Origin: Microbacteriaceae bacterium
GTDB lineage: Bacteria; Actinomycetota; Actinomycetes; Actinomycetales; Microbacteriaceae
Reading direction: 5' to 3'
Assembly: GCA_031177985.1 (NCBI GenBank)
Contig: JAPSJW010000002.1
Span: 62,001 to 126,000 of the forward strand
DNA length: 64,000 nucleotides
Under the pieces are notes generated by a model. It was not told where the DNA came from, searched no databases, and worked only from the letters and a program-made list of their open reading frames with translations. Of this stretch, positions 49,024 through 61,463 are shown piece after piece (position 1 is the first letter of the stretch; each line of letters begins with the position of its first letter). A program made the position numbers and the translations under genes.

Positions 49024-49095
49024 GCCTCTGTAGCTCAATGGAAGAGCAGTTCCGTCCTAAGGAAACGGTTGGGGGTTCGAGTCCCTCCAGGGGCA
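49024..49095 (+). tRNA. tRNA-Arg (anticodon CCT)
   Basis: 72-nt cloverleaf: acceptor GCCTCTG/CAGGGGC, D-stem GCTC/GAGC, anticodon loop GTCCTAA (anticodon CCT, reading AGG), T-loop TTCGAGT, discriminator A. Rare-codon tRNA-Arg genes are frequent integration sites, and an integrase relic lies 1.5 kb downstream. Confidence 0.93.
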
Positions 49096-49126
49096 CTGTC
49101 AGGTATAACGCGACGACGCGGGCTGA

Positions 49127-50443
49127 TCACGCGGCAACTGCCGGGAACACCACCAGAGCCCCGTCCTTGCCCCGCTCGATCTCGATCGCCACATCTCCGA
49201 CCGCTCCCGTAGCCGACACCTCGTCGCCCAGAGCGCGCACGCGGTACGCAGCTTGTAGCAACGCGTCAACTTCTCCAGGGGTGAACGTCGGAAGACGGAG
49301 CCCGCCTTGTCGCTTCAGTTTGAGAGTCGACAGCCTCATCAATACAGAGTCGATCGACGAACTCAGCTCTTCGAGGCGACGCTCGTCGGCGCGCAGCGCG
49401 TCGACAAAGCGAAGGAATGGGTTGCCTGTGTCCTGCTGGGCGTGCTCCACCGCCTGCAGGACGAGGACACGCCTCTTCAATGCGATGGCGAGGCGGGCCA
49501 GCTCGAGGTGCGCCCGGAACAGTCCGCCCTCCTCATTGACGCCCGGGAAGGATTTGCCTAGTTCGCTCACCTCAACCGGTCCGTCCTGCAATGAGTCAAG
49601 CGCGAGCGTCCATTTCTTGACGCGCCGCTTGGCGCTTTCGAACGCCTTGTTGATCTCATAGGCGGACGAATCGAGCCCGAGCGAATGGCCAGGGCGGCCC
49701 TGGTCGAGGAGAATCGATGTCGCCTTGTCGATCGCATCTCGGGAGCCGTCAAGCTGGTTTCGTTCATTGTCGAGGGTCTGCTCATGCAGCTGCTCGAGGA
49801 GGGTGGTGATTCTCTCGATCGCCTTCTGTCTTTCGTGGTCGGCATAGGCGGCAGCAGCAACGGCCACCGCCATCAGGACGAGGGGTGCGGCCACAGTGAG
49901 CGCACCCGCTGTAGCGGCGGTTGCGCCGGCCGTAACGGCCGAGCCGGCCGCCGCGCCAGCGCCGGTCGCCGCTGCCTTTCCTGCGACCGGCACGAAGGCC
50001 GCGTTGGCCACGATGCCCGTGGCGCCTCTCAGGCCTCCGTAGATGCCTCCTGCGACGGTCTTCGCGGCCATGGGCTGCACGAGCCCCTTCCCGACCTGAG
50101 CAGCCACCTTCGCCGGAATCACCATGCGGTACAACACTTCGCCCTGGGAAGCGACAGTCATGGTTCGAGGTGAAGCCTTCGCTGTGTCGGAGACGAGCCG
50201 TGCCAGCTGCTGGGCGAGCGGGCTGGCGGCGTTGAGCGCGATCCCTCCGCTTGGGTCGCGGCGCGCCTGAATGGGGTGGCATTCCAGGGTGGCGATTGGC
50301 GACTCGGCGAGAGTCGCGAGGGCAGTCCGCAACTCAGCGAGGCGCGCAGCAGTCAAACCTTCAATGCCGTCGAGCAAGTTCGGCACTGCGACCTCTTGAG
50401 TCGCAAGCGTCCAGACGGGTACCGCCTCTTCGTGGTTCGACAT
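49127..50443 (-). CDS. Uncharacterised protein with Gly/Ala-rich membrane segment and coiled coils
   Basis: 438 residues; family not recognised. Residues 1-110 are mixed alpha/beta. Residues 120-190 are Gly/Ala-rich with glycine-zipper spacing (GGIYGGLRGATG; GAGAAAGSAVTAGATA) leading into a clear membrane helix (LTVAAPLVLMAVAVAAAAYA). Then a charged helical region (HERQKAIERITTLLEQLHEQ and later helices, about 195-370) and a small C-terminal domain ending IEIERGKDGALVVFPAV. No signal peptide. Start ATG 50443 follows GAGGGG. It sits between tRNA-Arg and the integrase relic, the usual place for island cargo; a membrane-acting effector is possible but unproven. Confidence 0.7.
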   Translation of the reverse strand: MSNHEEAVPVWTLATQEVAVPNLLDGIEGLTAARLAELRTALATLAESPIATLECHPIQARRDPSGGIALNAASPLAQQLARLVSDTAKASPRTMTVASQGEVLYRMVIPAKVAAQVGKGLVQPMAAKTVAGGIYGGLRGATGIVANAAFVPVAGKAAATGAGAAAGSAVTAGATAATAGALTVAAPLVLMAVAVAAAAYADHERQKAIERITTLLEQLHEQTLDNERNQLDGSRDAIDKATSILLDQGRPGHSLGLDSSAYEINKAFESAKRRVKKWTLALDSLQDGPVEVSELGKSFPGVNEEGGLFRAHLELARLAIALKRRVLVLQAVEHAQQDTGNPFLRFVDALRADERRLEELSSSIDSVLMRLSTLKLKRQGGLRLPTFTPGEVDALLQAAYRVRALGDEVSATGAVGDVAIEIERGKDGALVVFPAVAA

Positions 50444-50544
50444 CGTTCCCCTCACCTTGAGCACACACTGTAAACGCCCGAGGCGACATCGCAGTGCTTC
50501 AGCGTCGGCTGGTCCTGCCGAGACTGGGACATGCCTCCATGCCG

Positions 50545-51050
50545 GGGGACGATGATCAGGCATCGATCGCTTCTCGTGCGTCTTGGGCATGCCGACCTCG
50601 ATCTCGTACGCGATAAACACCGCGTTGTCCTCGATGACGAAGCGCCGACGGAGGCGGTTCACCCTCCGCACCCGCAGCCCGGTCGCCTCGCCCCAGCGCA
50701 AGCCGGTGTGCGCCAGCGTCAGGACGAGCGTCGAATACGCGGAGCACTCCGCCAGCGTCGCCACCTGGTCGTGCGAGAGGTAGACGCGACGCTTGCCCAC
50801 ACAAGGGCTTCGGCATCGGCGGCTGCTTGGACCGCAGCCAGGTGTCCGCGAACATCCGGACCGGAAGCCGCGACGAAGACGGGTCGATGTACTCGCCCTT
50901 CGGCTTCGACACCGTGACCATGGAGAGGTCGAGCTTCGCCTCACGCATCGTCGTGAAGCCGCGCTTCTCCGCCTCGGTGCGATCGGGCTTGCGATAGCGC
51001 ACACGGTAGCGGCGGCCCTTCGCCGATTCGTATGGGGTCATGCTGCCCAT
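50545..51050 (-). pseudogene. Tyrosine recombinase (phage-type integrase) remnant
   Basis: From ATG 51050 (after GGAGG) one frame reads MTPYESAKGRRYRVRYRKPD...EYIDPSSSRL...FADTWLRSKQ, the AP2-like arm-binding start of an actinophage-type integrase. Near 50805 the homology jumps to another frame: GKRRVYLSHDQVATLAE...TLAHTGLRWGEATGLRV, which holds the first catalytic Arg, then stops around MPKTHEKRSMP. About 100 residues of the core-binding domain and the whole C-terminal half with the His-x-x-Arg and Tyr are missing. It cannot be functional. 50444-50544 shows nothing else. Confidence 0.85.
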
Positions 51051-51602: not shown

Positions 51603-53552
51603 GTGGTGAATCACGTCGCCTTCATCTGGAACATTGCGGAGTCCCTTCGCGGGCCTTTCAAGCCCTCAGAGTACGGCTCGGTCGTCCTCCCGTTCACCGT
51701 GCTTCGCCGGCTCGACGCCGTGCTGGCGGACACGAAGCCGGACGTGCTGGAGGCCGCGAAGACCACGGAGAACGTGCCGGACAAGCTTCGGGAGATTAAG
51801 CTGACTGAGGCATCGGGCCACCAGTTCTACAACACGAGCCCGTTCGACTTCGGCAAGCTCGTCGCCGACCCGCAGGACCTCCGCGCGAACCTCTTCGCGT
51901 ATCTCGCCGGGTTCTCGCCGAATGTGCGGGACATCTTCGAACGGTTCGAGTTCGACAAGACCCTGAACAAGCTCGCGGAGAAGAACAAACTGTTCGCGGT
52001 GACAGAGAAGTTCGCGCAGGCCGATTTCCACCCCCGCACGGTCAGCAACATCCAGATGGGCCTCGTATTCGAGGAACTCATCCGGTTCGCGAACGAGCGC
52101 TCGAACGAGACCGCCGGCGACCACTACACGCCCCGCGAGGTGATCGCGCTGATGGTGCAGCTGCTGTTCGTGCTCGACGACGACGCGTTGTCGAAGTCGG
52201 GTGTGGTGCGCTCGATCTACGACCCGACCGCTGGCACCGGCGGCATGCTGTCGGTCGCGGACGAGTACCTCCGGAGGATGAACCCGGGCATCCAGCTCAG
52301 CCTGTACGGGCAGGACTACAACGACGCCTCTTACGCGATCTGCAAAGCCGACATGGTCATCAAGGGCCAGGACGTCGACAACATCGCACTCGGCGACACC
52401 CTCACCGACGACCGCTTCGACGACAAGAAGTTCGACTACGGCCTGTCAAACCCGCCGTTCGGCGTGGACTGGAAAGACCAGCGCGCGTACGTGGATGACG
52501 AGCACACGAAGCTCGGCTTCAACGGCCGCTTCGGCCCGGGAACCCCCGCCGTCAGCGACGGCGCGATGCTGTTCCTGCTGCACCTGGTGTCAAAGATGCG
52601 CAGGCCCGAAGACGGCGGCTCCCGTATGGCCATCGTGCTCAACGGGTCACCGCTGTTCTCCGGCGGTGCTGGCGGCGGGGAGTCGAACATCCGCAAGTGG
52701 TTGCTCGACAACGACCTCGTCGAGGCGATCATCGGGCTGCCCAAGGACATGTTCTACAACACCGGCATCTCCACCTATATCTGGGTGCTCACCAACCGCA
52801 AGACTCACGACCGCAAGGGCCGCGTGCAACTCATCGACGCCCGCGAGATGTTCACCAAGCTCCGCAAAGGCCTCGGATCCAAACGCAACGAACTCTCACC
52901 GAAGGACATCGAGACCATTGTCGGCCTGTACGCAGGATTCGAGAACGGCGAGCACTCGAAGACCTTCCGCAACGAGGATTTCCTCTACCGCACCATCACC
53001 GTCGAACGCCCGTTCAAGCTCAACTGGCAGGCAACCTCCGAGCGAATCGACGCCGTCTTCGAGGCGAAGGCGGTTCAGAAGCTGAACGACACGGATGCCG
53101 CAGCCTTGCGCGCCGCGCTTGACCGGCTCGGCGCCGAGACAGTGTGGAAGAATCGTGCGGAGTTTCAGAAGGCGCTCAAGGATGCCGCGAAGGCGGAGGG
53201 TCTCACCCTCCCCGCACCGCTTCTGAAGACGGTGACCACCGAGCTCGGCGAGCAGGACGACACCGCCGACACCTGCACGGACCCGAAGGGGAACCCGGAG
53301 CCGGACACATCGCTCCGTGACACCGAGAACGTGCCGTGGGACGAGGACATCAACGTCTACGTCGCCCGCGAGGTCCTTCCGTACGCGCCCGACGCGTGGG
53401 TCGACCACTCCAAGATCAAGGAGGGCGCGGAGATCCCCTTCACCCGCCACTTCTACCGGCACATCCCACCCCGCCCGCTCGAAGAGATCGACCGCGATCT
53501 CGACGCCGTCATGGACCAACTCCGCGCAATGCTCGTCGAGGTCGAAAAGTGA
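51603..53552 (+). CDS. hsdM: Type I restriction-modification system methyltransferase subunit
   Basis: 649 residues, N6-adenine methyltransferase. Helical HsdM N-terminal domain (about 5-140), AdoMet motif I DPTAGTGGML (Asp207) and catalytic motif IV NPPFG (Asn283). The C-terminal ~180 residues (WDEDINVYVAREVLPYAPDAW...) match the usual end of this subfamily. With HsdS it methylates the recognition site; with HsdR it forms the restriction complex. GTG 51603 has no strong Shine-Dalgarno (AGGAG 14 bases upstream). Its stop overlaps hsdS (GTGA). Confidence 0.96.
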   Translation: MVNHVAFIWNIAESLRGPFKPSEYGSVVLPFTVLRRLDAVLADTKPDVLEAAKTTENVPDKLREIKLTEASGHQFYNTSPFDFGKLVADPQDLRANLFAYLAGFSPNVRDIFERFEFDKTLNKLAEKNKLFAVTEKFAQADFHPRTVSNIQMGLVFEELIRFANERSNETAGDHYTPREVIALMVQLLFVLDDDALSKSGVVRSIYDPTAGTGGMLSVADEYLRRMNPGIQLSLYGQDYNDASYAICKADMVIKGQDVDNIALGDTLTDDRFDDKKFDYGLSNPPFGVDWKDQRAYVDDEHTKLGFNGRFGPGTPAVSDGAMLFLLHLVSKMRRPEDGGSRMAIVLNGSPLFSGGAGGGESNIRKWLLDNDLVEAIIGLPKDMFYNTGISTYIWVLTNRKTHDRKGRVQLIDAREMFTKLRKGLGSKRNELSPKDIETIVGLYAGFENGEHSKTFRNEDFLYRTITVERPFKLNWQATSERIDAVFEAKAVQKLNDTDAAALRAALDRLGAETVWKNRAEFQKALKDAAKAEGLTLPAPLLKTVTTELGEQDDTADTCTDPKGNPEPDTSLRDTENVPWDEDINVYVAREVLPYAPDAWVDHSKIKEGAEIPFTRHFYRHIPPRPLEEIDRDLDAVMDQLRAMLVEVEK

Positions 53553-54850
53553 GTACTAGCAGAAGGTATCCGCTATATCGCCCAAGTGGACTTCAGTGGA
53601 ATCCTGAAGTCCCTAACCATTGGCAAGTCATGCCGTCCTGGGCAATTGCTCGACAGGTCCGTCGCCCGCCTGCGGCAAGTGACGGTGTCGTCACGGCCTT
53701 CCGCGACGGGCAGGTGACCCTTCGCAGCAACCGACGCACCGAAGGTTTTACCGAGGCTTTCCAGGAGCACGGGTACCAGGGAGTGCGGCGGGGTGAATTG
53801 GTCATTCACAGCATGGATGGCTTCGCTGGTGCCATCGGCGTGTCCGACTCCGATGGCAAGATGTCACCCGTCGCTCACATTTACTCAATACGCGGCGGCG
53901 AACCGCGGTTTTTTGCTCTCTTGTTGCGAGTGATGGCACTGAGCGGCTTCGTAGAGAGCCTAGCTAAGGGAATTCGCGAGCGGTCGACCGCCTTTGACAG
54001 GGGCGCGTTCAGGGCGCTTTCGATTCCGGTGCCGCCAGCCAACGAGCAAAGAAGCATCCTCGACTTCCTGGATCGGGAGACGGCGCAGATCGACGCGTTC
54101 ATCGCGAAGAACGAGGAACTCGTCGCGCTCCTCACCGAACGCCGCTCGAGCCAAGTCGCTGAAGCAGTATCGCGCGGGCTCGGAACCGCGCCCCGACTTG
54201 TCGACGCTCCCAGGCTTGCACTGGGGGCAATGCCAGCACATTGGTCCTTGATGCCGCTAAAGCGGGCCGTGAGCTACCAGGAAGGACCGGGGATCATGGC
54301 GGCGGACTTTCGTGAGTCGGGAGTGCCATTGCTCCGGATCTCGTCCGTCAGTACTGCTGTCGCGACCCTCCACGGCTGCAACTATTTGGACCCAGATCTC
54401 GTTAGAAGTCGGTGGTCGCATTTTCAGGTTGCAATGGGTGACTTGCTCATTAGTGCTAGCGCAAGTATGGGAACAATCGCCGAGGTTGGTACGGACGACG
54501 TTGTGGGCGCGGTGCCGTACACGGGCATCATCCGTATCAGCGAGGGGAAGATGTTGCGCGACTTCGCTAAGTGGTTCTTCGTTTCGGAAGAGTTCCTGAT
54601 GCAGGTGGAAGCTCTGAAGACGGGATCAACGATTGAGCACTTTGGGCCGTCACACCTTGGACGAATGTGGGTTGCCCTTCCGCCGGAATCGGAGCAGCGA
54701 GAGATCGCGGCTCACATCCAACACGCGACGAAACGAATCGACGAGTCGATTCGGATCGCGAAGCGCGGAGTTGAGCTAGCCAGGGAGCGACGAGCTGCGC
54801 TGATTTCGGCCGCGGTGACGGGGAAGATCGATGTGGGGGTGACGGCGTGA
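53549..54850 (+). CDS. hsdS: Type I restriction system specificity subunit
   Basis: 433 residues with the two-half pattern of HsdS: target-recognition domain 1 (about 15-150), conserved coiled-coil 1 (PPANEQRSILDFLDRETAQI...), TRD2 (about 215-360), coiled-coil 2 (PPESEQREIAAHIQHATKRI...) and the terminal ALISAAVTGKIDV. Each TRD reads one half of a bipartite site. The TRD-coding DNA is visibly more AT-rich than its neighbours (for example 53560-54000 and 54300-54700), as expected of exchanged TRDs. The target sequence cannot be predicted. GTG 53549 overlaps hsdM; the stop overlaps hsdR. Confidence 0.95.
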   Translation: MSTSRRYPLYRPSGLQWNPEVPNHWQVMPSWAIARQVRRPPAASDGVVTAFRDGQVTLRSNRRTEGFTEAFQEHGYQGVRRGELVIHSMDGFAGAIGVSDSDGKMSPVAHIYSIRGGEPRFFALLLRVMALSGFVESLAKGIRERSTAFDRGAFRALSIPVPPANEQRSILDFLDRETAQIDAFIAKNEELVALLTERRSSQVAEAVSRGLGTAPRLVDAPRLALGAMPAHWSLMPLKRAVSYQEGPGIMAADFRESGVPLLRISSVSTAVATLHGCNYLDPDLVRSRWSHFQVAMGDLLISASASMGTIAEVGTDDVVGAVPYTGIIRISEGKMLRDFAKWFFVSEEFLMQVEALKTGSTIEHFGPSHLGRMWVALPPESEQREIAAHIQHATKRIDESIRIAKRGVELARERRAALISAAVTGKIDVGVTA

Positions 54851-57800
54851 GTGGTGTTGCGGGGGCGCATCTGGAGTCGGTGCTCGAGAACGAGATCGCC
54901 GAGCATCTCGCCGCGAATGGCTGGCTGTACTCGCCGACTGATGCTGGCTACGACCGCGAGCTCGCCCTGTTTTCCGAGGACGTGCTTGGCTGGCTCGAGG
55001 ACTCGCAGCCGACCGAGTTCACGAAGGTGGTCCGCCCCGAGGACACCGAGTCGCAGCGTGACGCGGCGGCTCGCGGCATCCTGTCCCGTCTAGCGAAGGC
55101 GTTGGACAATGACCCGTTGAAGAACGGTGGCACGATCCGGATCCTGCACGAGGGGTTCTCGATGGTGCCTTTGCACGGTGGTGCGGTGAAGTTCAAGCTG
55201 GCGCAGTTCCGGCCGGCAACGACGAACAACCCGAACACGCTCGCGGCGTATGGGAAGATGCGCGTGCGGGTGATGCGTCAGGTTCACTACTCGGTGAAGC
55301 ATCCGAACAAGGCGTTGGATCTGGTGCTGTTCGTGAACGGGATCCCGGTCGCGACGGTCGAGTTGAAGACGGACTTCACGCAGCCGATCAGCAACGCGGT
55401 GGCGCAGTATCAGTTCGACCGGACCCCGGCGGGCGAGCCGTTGTTCGGGTTCGCTCGGCGGTCGCTGGTGCATTTCGTGGTGTCGAACAGTGCCGTGCAG
55501 ATGACGGCGAAGCTCGCCGGCGCGGCGACCCGTTTCTTGCCGTTCAACCGGGGCTACGACGAGGGGGCGGGGAACCCGCCGAACCCGAACGGATCGGCAT
55601 CTTCGTACTTCTGGGAGGAGATCCTGCAGCGGGACACCTGGCTGCAGCTGCTGGGATCGTTCGCTCATCTGCAGGTCGAGGTCGATGTGCACCCCGACAC
55701 CGGCAAGAAGACCCGTACTGAGAAAGTGCTGTTCCCCCGCTACCACCAGTGGCGGGCCGTCACGCGGCTGGTCGACGCGGCACGGGCGGAGGGGCCGGGG
55801 AACCGATATCTGGTGCAGCATTCGGCGGGGTCGGGCAAGACGAACTCGATCTCGTGGCTGGCGCACCGGCTGTCGCAGCTGCACGACCAGCAGAACGAGC
55901 GGGTGTTCGACACGGTCGTGGTGGTGACGGACAGGACGGTGCTGGACAAGCAGCTGCAGGACGCCATCGCACAGTTCGAGAAGCAGGCCGGGGTAGTGCA
56001 GTCGATCACCAAGGACGCCGGCGAGTCGAAGTCGAAGCAGCTGGCTGCCGCGCTGACCGGCGGCAAGAACATCGTGATCGTGACGATCCAGTCGTTCGAG
56101 GCGCTGATCACCGCGATCCAGACAATCCCCGAACTACAGGGCCGTCGTTTCGCGGTGATCGCGGACGAGGCGCACTCGTCGCAGACCGGGTCGACCGCCG
56201 GGGCACTGACGAAGGTGCTGTCCCCGGCAGAGCAGGCGGCGGTCGCCGAGGGTGCGCCCGTCGATTCGGAGGCGTATCTGCAGTGGGCGATGGAGGTCAC
56301 GGCGTCCGCCCCGAACATCTCCTACTTCGCGTTCACCGCCACCCCGAAGGCGAAGACGCTGGAGCTGTTCGGGCGGGTCTCTGCCGGAGGAGCGCTGCCG
56401 GAGCCGTTCGACCTGTACTCGATGCAGCAGGCCATCGAGGAGGGGTTCATCCTCGACGTGCTGCAGAACTACACGCCGTACAAGGTGGCGTGGAAGCTGC
56501 AGCATCCCGGTGACGACTACGACGGCGACGGCGAGGTCGACGAGTCGACCGCGGTGAAGGCACTGGTCCGGTACGTGCGGTTGCATTCGACGAACATCAG
56601 TCAGAAGGCGAAGATCGTCGTCGACCACTTCCGCACCTTCGTGCAGCCTCTGCTGGACGGCAGGGCGAAGGCGATGGTGGTCACCGGGTCGCGTCTGGAG
56701 GCGGCGAGGTGGAAGAAGTACCTCGACGATTACATCGCGGATGCCGGAGTGCAGGGGGTGCGGTCGCTGGTCGCGTTCTCGGGCACCGTGGACGACCCCG
56801 AGCTGCTCGGCGACGGACTCACGGAGCGGACACAGAATCCTGGGGTGCAGTCGGACCTCGCAGAAGCGTTCAAGCCGGCTACGTACAACGTGATGATCGT
56901 GGCCGAGAAGTTCCAGACCGGGTTCGACCAGCCCCGGCTGGTCGCGATGTACGTCGACAAGAAGCTCGGCGGCGTGCAGGCGGTGCAGACGCTGTCCCGG
57001 CTCAACCGCACCTACCCGGGCAAGGACAAGACGTTCGTCCTCGACTTCGTCAACGATCCTCAGGAGGTTCTGGACGCCTTCCTGCCGTACTACCGCAAGG
57101 CGACGCTCACGTCGACGACCGACCCAAATCTCATCTACGACCTCGTCACGAAACTGGATTCGGCCGGGATCTACGAGATGGCAGAGGTCGAGCAGGCCTT
57201 CGACGCGGCCCTAGCCGGCGGAGTGAGCGCGAACTCGAGGGTGTCCGCGGCGACCGCGCCGGCGGTGGACCGGTTCCAGAAGCGGTGGGTCGCGGCGGTC
57301 CTCGACGACGACAAGTCCGAGCAGGACGAGTTGAAGCTGTTCAAGGCGGATGCCGGGCAGTTCGTGAAGTTCTACGACTTCATCTCCCAGGCCCGCAACC
57401 TCGAGGACACCGATCTGCCCCGTCGGCACTACTTCTTGCGTCGCATCCTGCCGCAGCTGTCGACCGCGACCTACGCGGAACCGGTGGACATCTCGCAGGT
57501 GCAGCTCGTCGGTTACAAGATCGACCCCGGCGACTCTGTCAAGCTCCACCTCGAGCAAGGGCCTGGCCTGGACCCGATTACTGCCATCGGGTCGGGCGCG
57601 ATCCACGAGAAGCATCGCAGCGCGCTCGAGGAGATCATCCAGAAACTCAACGAACGCCTCGGCGACAAGTACGGCGTCGGCGTCATCGACATCACCGTGA
57701 ACCACATCGTCGGCAAGCTCGCGCTGGACGTGGAGCTCGCAAAGCAGGCTGAGGTCAACACGCCTCAGCAATTCGCTGAGTCGCCGGCCCTGCCGAAGGC

Positions 57801-57972
57801 GTTCACCAAAGCAGTCGTTGAGGTGCGGGACGAGACGCCCGCGTTCATCGATGACCTTCTGGGCGATGGGGGGCTCTTCTCTGACCTGAGCAAGGCGCTG
57901 CCGGCGATGCTGTACGAGTACTTGAAGGTAAAGGGAACCTCGAGCCCGGCCACAGGGGGCGACGAGGCGTGA
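54847..57972 (+). CDS. hsdR: Type I restriction enzyme motor/nuclease subunit
   Basis: 1041 residues. The N-terminal PD-(D/E)XK nuclease has Asp158 and Glu172-Leu-Lys174 (VATVELKTD). The SF2 translocase has Walker A HSAGSGKTNS (Lys331), DEAH at Asp440 (VIADEAHSSQTG), TATP in FTATPKAKTLELFG, and motif VI QTLSRLNRTYPG. The C-terminal helical region binds HsdM. It translocates and cuts unmethylated DNA. Layout is of the EcoR124-like branch. All key residues are present, so it is probably active. GTG 54847 overlaps hsdS. Confidence 0.96.
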   Translation: MSGVAGAHLESVLENEIAEHLAANGWLYSPTDAGYDRELALFSEDVLGWLEDSQPTEFTKVVRPEDTESQRDAAARGILSRLAKALDNDPLKNGGTIRILHEGFSMVPLHGGAVKFKLAQFRPATTNNPNTLAAYGKMRVRVMRQVHYSVKHPNKALDLVLFVNGIPVATVELKTDFTQPISNAVAQYQFDRTPAGEPLFGFARRSLVHFVVSNSAVQMTAKLAGAATRFLPFNRGYDEGAGNPPNPNGSASSYFWEEILQRDTWLQLLGSFAHLQVEVDVHPDTGKKTRTEKVLFPRYHQWRAVTRLVDAARAEGPGNRYLVQHSAGSGKTNSISWLAHRLSQLHDQQNERVFDTVVVVTDRTVLDKQLQDAIAQFEKQAGVVQSITKDAGESKSKQLAAALTGGKNIVIVTIQSFEALITAIQTIPELQGRRFAVIADEAHSSQTGSTAGALTKVLSPAEQAAVAEGAPVDSEAYLQWAMEVTASAPNISYFAFTATPKAKTLELFGRVSAGGALPEPFDLYSMQQAIEEGFILDVLQNYTPYKVAWKLQHPGDDYDGDGEVDESTAVKALVRYVRLHSTNISQKAKIVVDHFRTFVQPLLDGRAKAMVVTGSRLEAARWKKYLDDYIADAGVQGVRSLVAFSGTVDDPELLGDGLTERTQNPGVQSDLAEAFKPATYNVMIVAEKFQTGFDQPRLVAMYVDKKLGGVQAVQTLSRLNRTYPGKDKTFVLDFVNDPQEVLDAFLPYYRKATLTSTTDPNLIYDLVTKLDSAGIYEMAEVEQAFDAALAGGVSANSRVSAATAPAVDRFQKRWVAAVLDDDKSEQDELKLFKADAGQFVKFYDFISQARNLEDTDLPRRHYFLRRILPQLSTATYAEPVDISQVQLVGYKIDPGDSVKLHLEQGPGLDPITAIGSGAIHEKHRSALEEIIQKLNERLGDKYGVGVIDITVNHIVGKLALDVELAKQAEVNTPQQFAESPALPKAFTKAVVEVRDETPAFIDDLLGDGGLFSDLSKALPAMLYEYLKVKGTSSPATGGDEA

Positions 57973-58994
57973 ACATCTGGGGAGTTCACAACAACACCCT
58001 CACGACCGAGCTCGTTGACGAGGGGTTCATCAGCCTCGGTTGGGATGACTTGGCGGATCTACGGTCCATCGGTGCAGGGCGCGAAGGCTTGAAGCACGCA
58101 CTTGCCGAAGCGGAGCCCGATGCCAAACCACGCTCCATCGCCGGGCAGGCCGGGGTCCTCACGCGTTTTCGTGACGAGATGCGTCCGGGCGACATCATCG
58201 TCGCCCCGTACAAGCCCGACTCGACTATCAATCTTGGTCTGGTGGAGGGCGACTACTACTTCGACCCGTCGGTGGAATCTCACAAGCACCGCCGCCGCGT
58301 CAAGTGGAAACGTGTCGGGCTTCCGCGAACGGTGTTCTCCCAAGCGGCGCTGTACGAAATTGGTTCCGTACTTGCGGTATTCCGCGTCCGTCGCCACGCC
58401 GACGAATTCCTTGCAGCCTTGGACAGTCCCGAGGAGTCGCTCGACGAGCTTGCCAAGACAATCGACCTCGCAGCCGATCAGTCGGCGAGCGACGATGAGG
58501 TCGATGAGCCGCGCGCATCTCGGATTGAGCGGCATACCCGTGACTTCGTGCTCGAGACTCTGCACAAGAAATTGACTCACCAGGACTTCGAAGAGTTCAC
58601 TGCTGCGCTTCTTCGCGCGCTCGGATACCAAGCTCGTGTGACCCAGTTCTCACAGGACGGAGGAGTCGACGTCATCGCGCATCGTGACCCTCTGGGCGTC
58701 GAACCGCCGCAGATCAAAGTCCAATGCAAGCACCGCACCGGCACGGTGGGTGCACCCGACGTGCAGCAGCTAATAGGCACGCAGGGCCCGGGAGAGCTCT
58801 CCCTGTTCGTGACTCTCGGCAGTTATTCGCGAGATGCCCTTGCAATCGAGCGGCAGCGCCCTGGCCTCCGGCTCTTGTCTGGTGAGGATGTCGTCACGAT
58901 GGTGCTCGAGAACTACACCGAACTACCGGAGTCCTGGCGTGCCGTGATTCCTTTGACACGAGTCCTCGTCGTGGCGGACATTGCCGAGCGCTGA
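57969..58994 (+). CDS. Mrr-like restriction endonuclease with N-terminal modified-base-reader-like domain
   Basis: 341 residues. Residues about 200-310 are an Mrr_cat PD-(D/E)XK domain: FEEFTAALLRALGY, DGGVDVIA (Asp234) and QCKH (Gln252, Lys254). The N-terminal ~150 residues (MNIWGVHNNTLTTELVDEGF; MRPGDIIVAPY; GLVEGDYYFDP) look like an EVE/PUA-type base-sensing domain found in modification-dependent enzymes. It would act as a type IV enzyme that cuts foreign methylated DNA. GTG 57969 overlaps the hsdR stop by four bases, so it is the fourth gene of the hsd operon. Confidence 0.85.
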   Translation: MNIWGVHNNTLTTELVDEGFISLGWDDLADLRSIGAGREGLKHALAEAEPDAKPRSIAGQAGVLTRFRDEMRPGDIIVAPYKPDSTINLGLVEGDYYFDPSVESHKHRRRVKWKRVGLPRTVFSQAALYEIGSVLAVFRVRRHADEFLAALDSPEESLDELAKTIDLAADQSASDDEVDEPRASRIERHTRDFVLETLHKKLTHQDFEEFTAALLRALGYQARVTQFSQDGGVDVIAHRDPLGVEPPQIKVQCKHRTGTVGAPDVQQLIGTQGPGELSLFVTLGSYSRDALAIERQRPGLRLLSGEDVVTMVLENYTELPESWRAVIPLTRVLVVADIAER

Positions 58995-59557: not shown

Positions 59558-60622
59558 ATGCCCAACGAGAAGCCCCTGGCAAGCGAGTCCGAGGTGATCC
59601 GCGAAGTTGCGCAACGCCTAGCTAGCCTTCTGCCGGCAGGCTGGTCGGTCGAGGCGCTGGAAGACCGCAGTCACGCGACCATCCGCCGCGAGGATGCCGT
59701 ACTGCGCTTTCGTGCTCCCAGCGGCGTCGAGGCCGCCGTGCCGGTCGAGGCGAAGCGCATTGTTGAAGGAAGAGACGTCGCTGCGATAGCCGAACAGATG
59801 CGGTTTGGGCGGGAGGGTCTGATCGTGATGGCCAGATATCTTCCAGCGCCGGTCCGGGACAGGCTGAGCAAGGCAGGCATGTCATGGGCCGACGCAACCG
59901 GCAACATGCGGATCGCCGTGCCCTGGCCCGGCCTGTTCATTTTCGACCGCGGCGCTGACAGTGATCCCTGGCGCGGGCCGGGACGTCCCCGCGGCACGCT
60001 GAAGGGAGAGCCCGCCGCAAAGGTCGTACGCGCATTGGTCGATGTCCATCGAAAGTGGTCGATGCGCGACCTAGCCCAGTGCTCGCGTGCCTCGACTGGA
60101 GCAACCTACAGGGTGGTCCAGTTTCTTGAGGACGAGGGGCTAGTCGAGCGAGAAGGTGGGCGGGTTACCGTGCGCGATTGGAAAGCGATACTGCGAAGGT
60201 GGAGCGCCGACTACAGCTTCGTTCGCACAAACGTGACGACGCGATGGATTGCTCCGCGCGGAATCGATGACGTTCTCTTTCGAGCAAGAGGCGATTCGCC
60301 CCGATACGTAGTCACGAGCACTGTGGCTGCTGCCAGATGGGCACCTTACGCCCCGTCCCGTTCCCTCATGGCGTATGTCGACTCCGTTGACGACGCGGCA
60401 GAAGCCTGGGGACTTCGTGCCGCCGATAGTGGTGCCAATGTCGTGCTTGCCGTACCCAAATTTGACGTCGTATACGACCGTTCGGAGCTGTGGGACGGCA
60501 TCCAGATTGCTGCGCCATCACAGGTGGCGGTCGATCTGATGACCGGTCCCGGTAGGAACCCGTCTGAGGCTGAGGAGCTGATCCATTGGATGGAACGAAA
60601 TGAACCCGTCTGGCGTCGATAG
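59558..60622 (+). CDS. AbiEi-type antitoxin / transcription regulator
   Basis: 354 residues. A winged helix lies in the middle (about 148-205: AAKVVRALVDVHRKWSMRDLAQCSRASTGATYRVVQFLEDEGLV spans it), followed by a C-terminal domain ending APSQVAVDLMTGPGRNPSEA, characteristic of AbiEi-family antitoxins. The N-terminal ~110 residues contain AVPVEAKRIVEGRDV, an E-x-K pattern like a PD-(D/E)XK strand, so this is a long variant. It should repress the operon and neutralise the downstream nucleotidyltransferase. ATG 59558 follows GGAGG. Confidence 0.8.
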   Translation: MPNEKPLASESEVIREVAQRLASLLPAGWSVEALEDRSHATIRREDAVLRFRAPSGVEAAVPVEAKRIVEGRDVAAIAEQMRFGREGLIVMARYLPAPVRDRLSKAGMSWADATGNMRIAVPWPGLFIFDRGADSDPWRGPGRPRGTLKGEPAAKVVRALVDVHRKWSMRDLAQCSRASTGATYRVVQFLEDEGLVEREGGRVTVRDWKAILRRWSADYSFVRTNVTTRWIAPRGIDDVLFRARGDSPRYVVTSTVAAARWAPYAPSRSLMAYVDSVDDAAEAWGLRAADSGANVVLAVPKFDVVYDRSELWDGIQIAAPSQVAVDLMTGPGRNPSEAEELIHWMERNEPVWRR

Positions 60623-61463
60623 TCCTGGTCGCTCCGAGAGCCTGCTGGCCTCATCGCGTGCTGCGCTGCTGGATGCGCTCGAAGCGCTTGAAGCGCACCG
60701 AGACTCAGTCATCGTCATCGGAGCGCAGGCCATCTACCTTCGTGCGAGCTCCCGCCAGGTCGCACTCGCCGAGTTCACGAAGGACAGCGATCTCGCACTA
60801 GATCCACGCAGCCTAGGCGAGGATCCTCGAGTGGAGGAGGCGATGACCAACGCGGGGTTTCATCCCAACCTAACCTCGAGCAACCCTGGAGAGTGGGAGA
60901 GTCCGGCGGGCATACCTGTGGACTTAATGGTGCCAGAGGCCGTAGCGGGCCCCGCCCAAAAGGGGCGAAGGGGCGCGCGGATTCCTCCGCATAGCAGGGC
61001 GGCTGCGCGAAGAGCCGTCGGACTCGAAGCGGCGCTGATCGACAATGACGAGCTGGAGATCGTCGCCCTTGCTGAAGACGACACACGTGCCTACAAGGTG
61101 CGCGTAGCAGGGTTGGGAGCGCTCCTGGTCGCCAAGCTCCATAAGCTCGGGGACCGAGCCGCAGCAGATCGTCGCCGCCTCCATGACAAGGACGCACATG
61201 ACGTCTACCGGATCCTTCTAGCGAGTTCGACGCCCGACCTCGCATCGAAGCTCGCCGTTCTCTTGGCGGACCCCTTGTCCAGGGAGGTCGTTCTGCGGGC
61301 GATGGACATTTTGGGAGAGCTCTTCGCCCCTGGTCCGGACGCGCTCGGATCGGTCATGGCCGGACGGGCGGAAGAGGGCATTGGCGATCCCGAGAACGTT
61401 GCGCAATCGGTGGCGATTCTCGCCCACGATCTCCTCAGTGTGCTTGAGCCCGATCAGGGCTGA
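60600..61463 (+). CDS. AbiEii-type nucleotidyltransferase toxin
   Basis: 287 residues with a polymerase-beta-like nucleotidyltransferase core: VIVIGAQAIYLRASS and FTKDSDLALD supply the glycine turn and paired aspartates. KVRVAGLGALLVAKLHKLGDR is the following conserved helix, and DKDAHDVYRIL is typical of AbiEii/MenT-like proteins. Such toxins use NTPs to modify tRNA or other targets and cause abortive infection; the target here is unknown. ATG 60600 overlaps the antitoxin gene by 23 bases, so expression is coupled. Confidence 0.82.
   Translation: MNPSGVDSPGRSESLLASSRAALLDALEALEAHRDSVIVIGAQAIYLRASSRQVALAEFTKDSDLALDPRSLGEDPRVEEAMTNAGFHPNLTSSNPGEWESPAGIPVDLMVPEAVAGPAQKGRRGARIPPHSRAAARRAVGLEAALIDNDELEIVALAEDDTRAYKVRVAGLGALLVAKLHKLGDRAAADRRRLHDKDAHDVYRILLASSTPDLASKLAVLLADPLSREVVLRAMDILGELFAPGPDALGSVMAGRAEEGIGDPENVAQSVAILAHDLLSVLEPDQG

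Follow-up and report, generated by a model that had tools for sequence, protein, structure and literature searches.

The pairing of type I restriction with type IV restriction is already in print and has been tested in Vibrio cholerae, where the type IV system TgvAB is embedded in the type I cluster of VPI-2; both systems are reported to be active, and they have been suggested to be complementary against modified and unmodified phages (PMC11411939). BREX combined with type IV restriction provides a further precedent (PMC8565348), and the immigration control region of Escherichia coli holds mrr and mcrBC together with hsdRMS in one locus (PMC12707154). Bell, Wolf and Koonin predicted in 2020 a group of type IV enzymes built from an EVE domain and a PD-(D/E)XK nuclease, and also predicted that type I systems linked to EVE proteins restrict modified as well as unmodified DNA (PMC7641849). 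VcaM4I, an EVE-HNH endonuclease that flips 5-methylcytosine and 5-hydroxymethylcytosine, serves as a model for base flipping by such readers (PMC7897488). Here we describe a 64,000-nucleotide stretch of a Microbacteriaceae genome (GCA_031177985.1, contig JAPSJW010000002.1, positions 62,001 to 126,000; the whole stretch is referred to as the window) in which an operon of hsdM, hsdS and hsdR ends in a fourth gene, encoding an Mrr-type nuclease with a predicted EVE/YTH-like N-terminal domain (EVE-Mrr). We think it probable that this operon joins a type I system to a single-chain type IV nuclease and that the two would act as complementary defenses, a reading that builds on gene order, gene overlaps, domains, motifs and the modularity of the reader and on a predicted reader fold.

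The window resembles V. cholerae VPI-2 in having a part that is modification dependent (by prediction in the window) inside a type I operon, but TgvAB is a two-gene relative of GmrSD, whereas in the window a single EVE-Mrr gene closes the operon. The reader-nuclease layout is the same as in the predicted EVE-PD(D/E)XK enzymes; however, the type I-linked EVE proteins named in the cited text of PMC7641849 are standalone EVE proteins, mostly archaeal, or PIN-GNAT-EVE proteins, and not an EVE-Mrr protein whose gene overlaps hsdR. VcaM4I is likewise a fusion of reader and nuclease, although its nuclease is of the HNH type and that of the window protein is of the Mrr type. E. coli Mrr shares the Mrr_cat domain but carries a winged helix at its N terminus (PMC12707154) where the window protein has an EVE/YTH-like reader instead. 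In a literature search covering titles and the openings of abstracts, we found no description that places EVE-Mrr fourth in a type I operon and none of a tested base target for this class. The novelty of the combination is thus limited, and the present analysis contributes an EVE-Mrr gene that overlaps hsdR and is kept in five operons, a second position of the gene beside another class of type I system, and a control suggesting that a link to type I operons is general among Mrr-type genes. The operon is a compact case of layered restriction in which one operon is predicted to act against both kinds of DNA; its nearest named relatives suggest that it is actinobacterial.

The original prediction placed the four genes at 51603-58994 on the forward strand with pairwise four-base overlaps, and the open reading frames and junction sequences agree with it (Table 1). 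All three junctions read GTGA, the stop codon of the upstream gene and the GTG start of the next gene sharing these four bases; hsdM could also start at a second GTG, the next codon, at 51606. From the overlaps we infer that the four genes are probably co-transcribed and translationally coupled. Counts of promoter-like sites (1, versus 1.2 in shuffled sequences) and terminator-like sites (6 versus 5.9) showed no excess and are therefore uninformative.

Table 1. Genes, domains and the last junction of the four-gene operon, in window coordinates
Feature	Position	Strand	Details
hsdM (type I N6-adenine methyltransferase subunit)	51603..53552	+	649 amino acids, GTG start
hsdS (specificity subunit)	53549..54850	+	433 amino acids, GTG start, 4-base overlap with hsdM
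hsdR (restriction/translocase subunit)	54847..57972	+	1041 amino acids, GTG start, 4-base overlap with hsdS
EVE-Mrr (Mrr-like) gene, PADLOC candidate PDC-S02	57969..58994	+	341 amino acids, GTG start
hsdR/Mrr-like junction	57969..57972	+	GTGA, 4-base overlap; likewise in L002, L003, L006 and L076
N-terminal reader domain	57969..58433	+	residues 1-155, predicted EVE/YTH (PUA-like) fold
Mrr catalytic domain	58566..58901	+	residues 200-311, Pfam Mrr_cat 85.8 bits

The first three genes encode a type I restriction-modification system as judged by subunits, domains and motifs, and methylation and restriction are predicted for it. HsdM has the Pfam domains HsdM_N and N6_Mtase, an NPPF motif at residue 283 and a match to the PADLOC model MTase_I (PDLC03029, E 1.4e-274). 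Methylase_S was matched in two stretches of HsdS (33.5 bits, cutoff 22), which also matches Specificity_I of PADLOC (E 1.5e-76). HsdR combines HSDR_N, SWI2_SNF2 and T1R_D3-like domains, with the motifs ELK, GSGKT and DEAH all present. The NCBIfam hsdR model TIGR00348 (E 4.5e-51) was matched at 174.2 bits, under its curated cutoff of 284.55, and the match to the NCBIfam hsdM model was also under the curated cutoff.

Predicted reader and Mrr-type nuclease in the fourth protein

The fourth protein aligns over residues 2-335 of its 341 with positions 4-329 of the 334 in the PADLOC model PDLC04819 (PDC-S02; E 5.6e-106). This candidate carries no description in PADLOC, and a type I context lies outside its model; we take the "S" in its name to denote a single-gene candidate. 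That the gene encodes an Mrr-like nuclease, as had been proposed, was borne out by the Mrr_cat domain and by invariant residues in it, and DNA cutting is predicted accordingly from the sequence. The protein has a GGVD...VQCK motif that is kept in the five operons, and D234, Q252 and K254 do not vary among 13 aligned sequences (that of the window protein and those of 12 relatives). These three are candidate catalytic residues of a PD-QxK site, by analogy with the active site reported for Mrr (PMC12707154). The C-terminal half of a full-length structural model aligned in VIA with MspJI (4f0p; Z 10.5, 3.6 Å, 142 residues) and AspBHI (4oc8; Z 10.3, 3.9 Å, 140 residues), and both of these structural neighbors are modification-dependent enzymes.

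The N-terminal domain had been described as base-reader-like, and a comparison of its predicted structure with EVE/PUA folds had been proposed. No Pfam family scored above its cutoff in residues 1-150, the winged helix Mrr_N was not found in the protein at E 0.1, and a sequence search of the PDB with the protein gave nothing at E <= 0.001; structure prediction was therefore used. AlphaFold2, given the 13-sequence alignment of the window protein and its counterparts from 12 related loci, produced a model of residues 1-155 with a predicted local distance difference test (pLDDT) score of 89.2 and a predicted template modeling (pTM) score of 0.83. The top VIA row for this model was VcaM4I (6yex; Z 9.7, 3.5 Å, 122 residues), level with further EVE and YTH rows, among them PH1033 (1wmm; Z 9.6, 3.1 Å, 114 residues), MJECL36 (2p5d; Z 9.4, 3.0 Å, 112 residues), the YTH entry 6k6u (Z 9.4) and YTHDC2 with DNA containing N6-methyladenine (9szp; Z 9.2, 3.0 Å, 118 residues). 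Foldseek placed YTHDF2 at the top (4rdo, E 1.2e-3), with 2eve, the founding member of EVE, in fifth place (E 9e-3). Because EVE and YTH rows were tied, we call the domain EVE/YTH-like and neither one alone. The earlier description thus holds at the level of the predicted fold, and the fusion of a PUA-superfamily reader to a PD-(D/E)XK nuclease would match the EVE-PD(D/E)XK type IV layout. Aromatic residues such as W4, W25, Y96 and W113 are invariant in the alignment and are candidates for the pocket; the modified-base pocket of VcaM4I includes P24, W82 and Y130.

Related operons and reader relatives in other contexts

The genomic context of related genes was surveyed in 48 loci, made up of 14 of the 15 in the set of nearest named relatives and 34 distinct further regions. 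Thirty-six such regions were fetched, and two of them (L077 and L089, with records identical to L007 and L014) were removed before context was counted; L016, which matched the reader only, was left out. The order hsdM-hsdS-hsdR-mrr was found in three Microbacterium loci (L002, L003 and L006) and in one genome of the window's own family (L076), and every junction in these four loci is a four-base overlap (12 of 12, or 15 of 15 across five loci when the window is included). Mean pairwise identity among the five operons is 87% for HsdM, 86.5% for HsdR and 80% for the Mrr-like protein but 37% for HsdS; within the Mrr-like protein, the reader is 68-93% identical and the catalytic stretch 79-96%. 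L002 and L076 are the nearest pair and L006 is the farthest for HsdR and the Mrr-like protein alike, which fits inheritance of the operon as a unit. A tree of the Mrr-like proteins, from which L014, L015, L094 and L107-L111 were left out as truncated, frame-broken, of odd length or reader-only fusions, gave no firm support for grouping L006 with the other four operons (82/65). On the opposite strand in L003, 230 bases past the Mrr-like gene, lies a gene for a SIR2-like protein (PF13289; L003:11257-14304, 1015 amino acids), a neighbor consistent with a defense island.

In a second arrangement the genes run R-S-mrr-M, closely packed in L008, L009, L013 and L079 and more loosely spaced in L083; the HsdR of L008, the one locus of this order that was scanned, carries EcoEI_R_C. 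More distant relatives, about 30% identical, lie 102 and 125 bases behind a type I operon in L098 and L103, and those in L092, L097 and L102 are farther from the type I operon or on the opposite strand.

Relatives of the reader also occur in other fusions, and this modularity agrees with the earlier description of the N terminus as reader-like. In L107, L108 and L111 a domain 42-47% identical to the reader begins proteins of 853-1116 amino acids that contain an AAA_5 motor, and directly after each lies a gene for a McrBC-family (PF10117) protein. This is the McrB-McrC arrangement known from established type IV systems, and it marks the reader as a module. The proteins of L107 and L108 have Mrr_N as well, between reader and motor, and may thus hold two readers each. 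Three Rhodococcus plasmid records contain a related stretch (37% identical over residues 3-154) in a protein annotated as an AAA family ATPase. A search of a virus structure library returned a single strong match: the BFVD entry A0A8S5NVT7 (Myoviridae sp. ctEBR14, an uncharacterized protein of 336 amino acids) matched the reader model with E 3.2e-9 and a query TM score of 0.81, and this phage record may therefore carry a similar reader protein. A scan of viral contigs returned one locus, which matched the nuclease part only.

Proposed mode of action and alternative explanations

In the arrangement that we consider probable, the type I part would mark adenines at its own site and cut DNA that lacks the mark. 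The EVE/YTH-like domain would scan for a modified base and flip it into the reader pocket, and the Mrr-type PD-QxK domain would then cut close to the flipped base. By way of the four-base overlap, EVE-Mrr would be translated along with hsdR. Phages with ordinary DNA would fall to the type I enzyme, and phages that block it by modifying their bases would be exposed to the type IV enzyme. That the reader must spare DNA methylated by the operon's own HsdM had been pointed out before and is a logical need. The reader most likely skips N6-methyladenine and reads a modified or hypermodified pyrimidine; a reader that ignores N6-methyladenine would not take the HsdM mark as a target. The comparison of the five operons suggests that self-avoidance comes more likely through base chemistry than through sequence context, because HsdS has diverged while the reader has been kept. 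For the same reason, since HsdS is so much more variable than HsdM, HsdR and the Mrr-like protein, the nuclease does not seem to be matched to a single methylation site.

Several results count against this reading. The full-length model is modest (pLDDT 76.3, pTM 0.48), Foldseek of the reader alone gave no PDB match at E <= 0.001, and the reader's Z scores of 8-10 are slightly over the 7-8 that is typical in VIA for models without a clear match. In the nuclease half, the Pfam family NA-iREase1, which is named as inactive, reaches 27.3 bits (cutoff 27) in the stretch where Mrr_cat far outscores it with 85.8 bits. C5-cytosine methyltransferases (PF00145) are not clearly depleted among genomes that carry the family: PF00145 was matched in 6 of the 14 genomes in which the family was strongly matched (E < 1e-70) and in 194 of 396 overall, genomes absent from the PF00145 match list being counted as lacking it. 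Among the 15 remaining genomes, with family matches weaker than E 1e-70, 10 had PF00145, and the window's own genome had none at E 1e-15. As these methyltransferases are not clearly depleted, the counts give no support to 5-methylcytosine as a general target. Two further points, the replacement of the fourth gene in a close relative and the neighborhood of Mrr genes without a reader, bear on how tightly the gene is tied to the operon.

It is nearly an even question whether the fourth gene is an independent defense gene that occupies a cargo slot of the type I operon, sharing expression with HsdMSR but having no functional tie to it. This explanation overlaps with complementary defense by EVE-Mrr and the type I system, for which complementary action is all that is needed, and the probabilities of the two need not sum to one. 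HsdR was matched at E <= 1e-100 in 21 of the 299 genomes of the window's family. Three of these proteins have at least about 80% identity; of their genomes, that of the window and G092 have the Mrr-like gene, and G048 (locus L134; HsdR 80%, HsdM 85%) does not. In its place, 11 bases after hsdR, L134 has a Hypoth_Ymh gene (PF09509; L134:8106-8846), and the position after hsdR may therefore be a cargo slot. The Mrr-like gene was found in none of 18 loci with a related hsdR (all 21 except the window, G092 and a broken match in G160), of which L143 ends shortly after hsdR and has little weight. Moreover, 30 of the 48 surveyed stretches, some of them short, contain neither hsdR nor hsdM.

A control set was formed from 20 of the 21 loci that matched the nuclease half only, G285 being left out. 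The possibility that linkage to type I systems is special to EVE-Mrr was considered and dropped: hsdR and hsdM lie nearby in 6 of 20 control loci, two of which (L159 and L173) rest on weak matches, and in 14 of 48 EVE-Mrr or reader loci, so that Mrr genes without the reader are linked to type I genes at a similar rate. An hsd gene on the same strand and no more than 150 bases away was present at 4 of 20 and 10 of 48 loci, respectively. Because the hsd queries were taken from the window and the EVE-Mrr loci, they favor the EVE-Mrr set; the two sets are unmatched in taxonomy and in stretch length (4.2 to 21 kb), and absence of the reader in the controls was judged from the extent of the family-model match, with Mrr_N checked in three. 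These three (L158, L163 and L164) have the winged-helix Mrr_N, and together with L162 they place a reader-less Mrr gene between hsdM and hsdS, where in each case it overlaps hsdS by four bases. Given similar linkage in reader-less controls, linkage is weak evidence for a partnership, and the tendency to join type I operons seems to belong to Mrr-type genes in general rather than to the EVE-like reader. The survey of hsdMSR-mrr co-occurrence that had been proposed thus upheld an overlapping unit kept in five loci but showed the linkage to be less special than had been implied. The positions found (after R, between S and M, and between M and S) suggest several entry sites for Mrr-type genes in type I operons, often with four-base overlaps. 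Against a mere cargo slot, the four-base overlaps in all five loci and the matching nearest pairs of HsdR and the Mrr-like protein suggest a unit that has been kept together.

A different target for the reader is conceivable but unlikely: it might see N6-methyladenine in a context that HsdM and HsdS do not make, so that foreign adenine-methylated DNA would be cut. YTH structures, some with N6-methyladenine, are among the best folds for the reader (Z about 8 to 9.8) and tie with EVE; a YTH domain that senses N6-methyladenine is described in the McrBC of Thermococcus gammatolerans (PMC7897488), and E. coli Mrr is reported to respond to both N6-methyladenine and 5-methylcytosine in different contexts (PMC12707154). 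However, with HsdS proteins only about 37% identical and a similar reader in each operon, a filter based on sequence context would risk hitting the operon's own mark.

The proposal that EVE proteins beside type I systems behave like toxin-antitoxin pairs (PMC7641849) would make the fourth protein a fail-safe or abortive-infection nuclease, lethal to cells whose type I mark has been lost or changed. Nothing in its anatomy suggests sensing of such a loss, and for many relatives the fetched stretch contains no hsdM; we regard this as very improbable. Returning to EVE-Mrr as a modification-dependent partner of the type I system, there is a slim chance that it docks on HsdMSR, so that DNA reeled in by HsdR would be scanned for modified bases and cut by the Mrr domain where HsdR cannot cut. 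If this were true, the four proteins would form one integrated machine, and the type I enzyme would have a modification-dependent mode of its own.

Genomic neighborhood of the operon

Upstream of the operon, a tRNA-Arg gene (CCT) at 49024-49096 is followed by a minus-strand open reading frame that matches phage integrases over its residues 70-141 (phrog_1, E 1.1e-6). The apparent start of the integrase, assigned by eye, lies in another frame at 50556-51050 and has no family match (the region as a whole spans 49024-51050). The reading frame beside the tRNA gene is probably a decayed integrase, and the operon may therefore lie on a former island; no direct repeat of at least 14 bases from the tRNA-Arg region was found elsewhere in the window. 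Downstream of the operon, at 59558-61463, two overlapping genes encode proteins of 354 amino acids, with weak helix-turn-helix matches, and 287 amino acids, with a weak match to NTP_transf_8, all below the cutoff. From their layout, our guess is that they might be an AbiE-type toxin-antitoxin pair.

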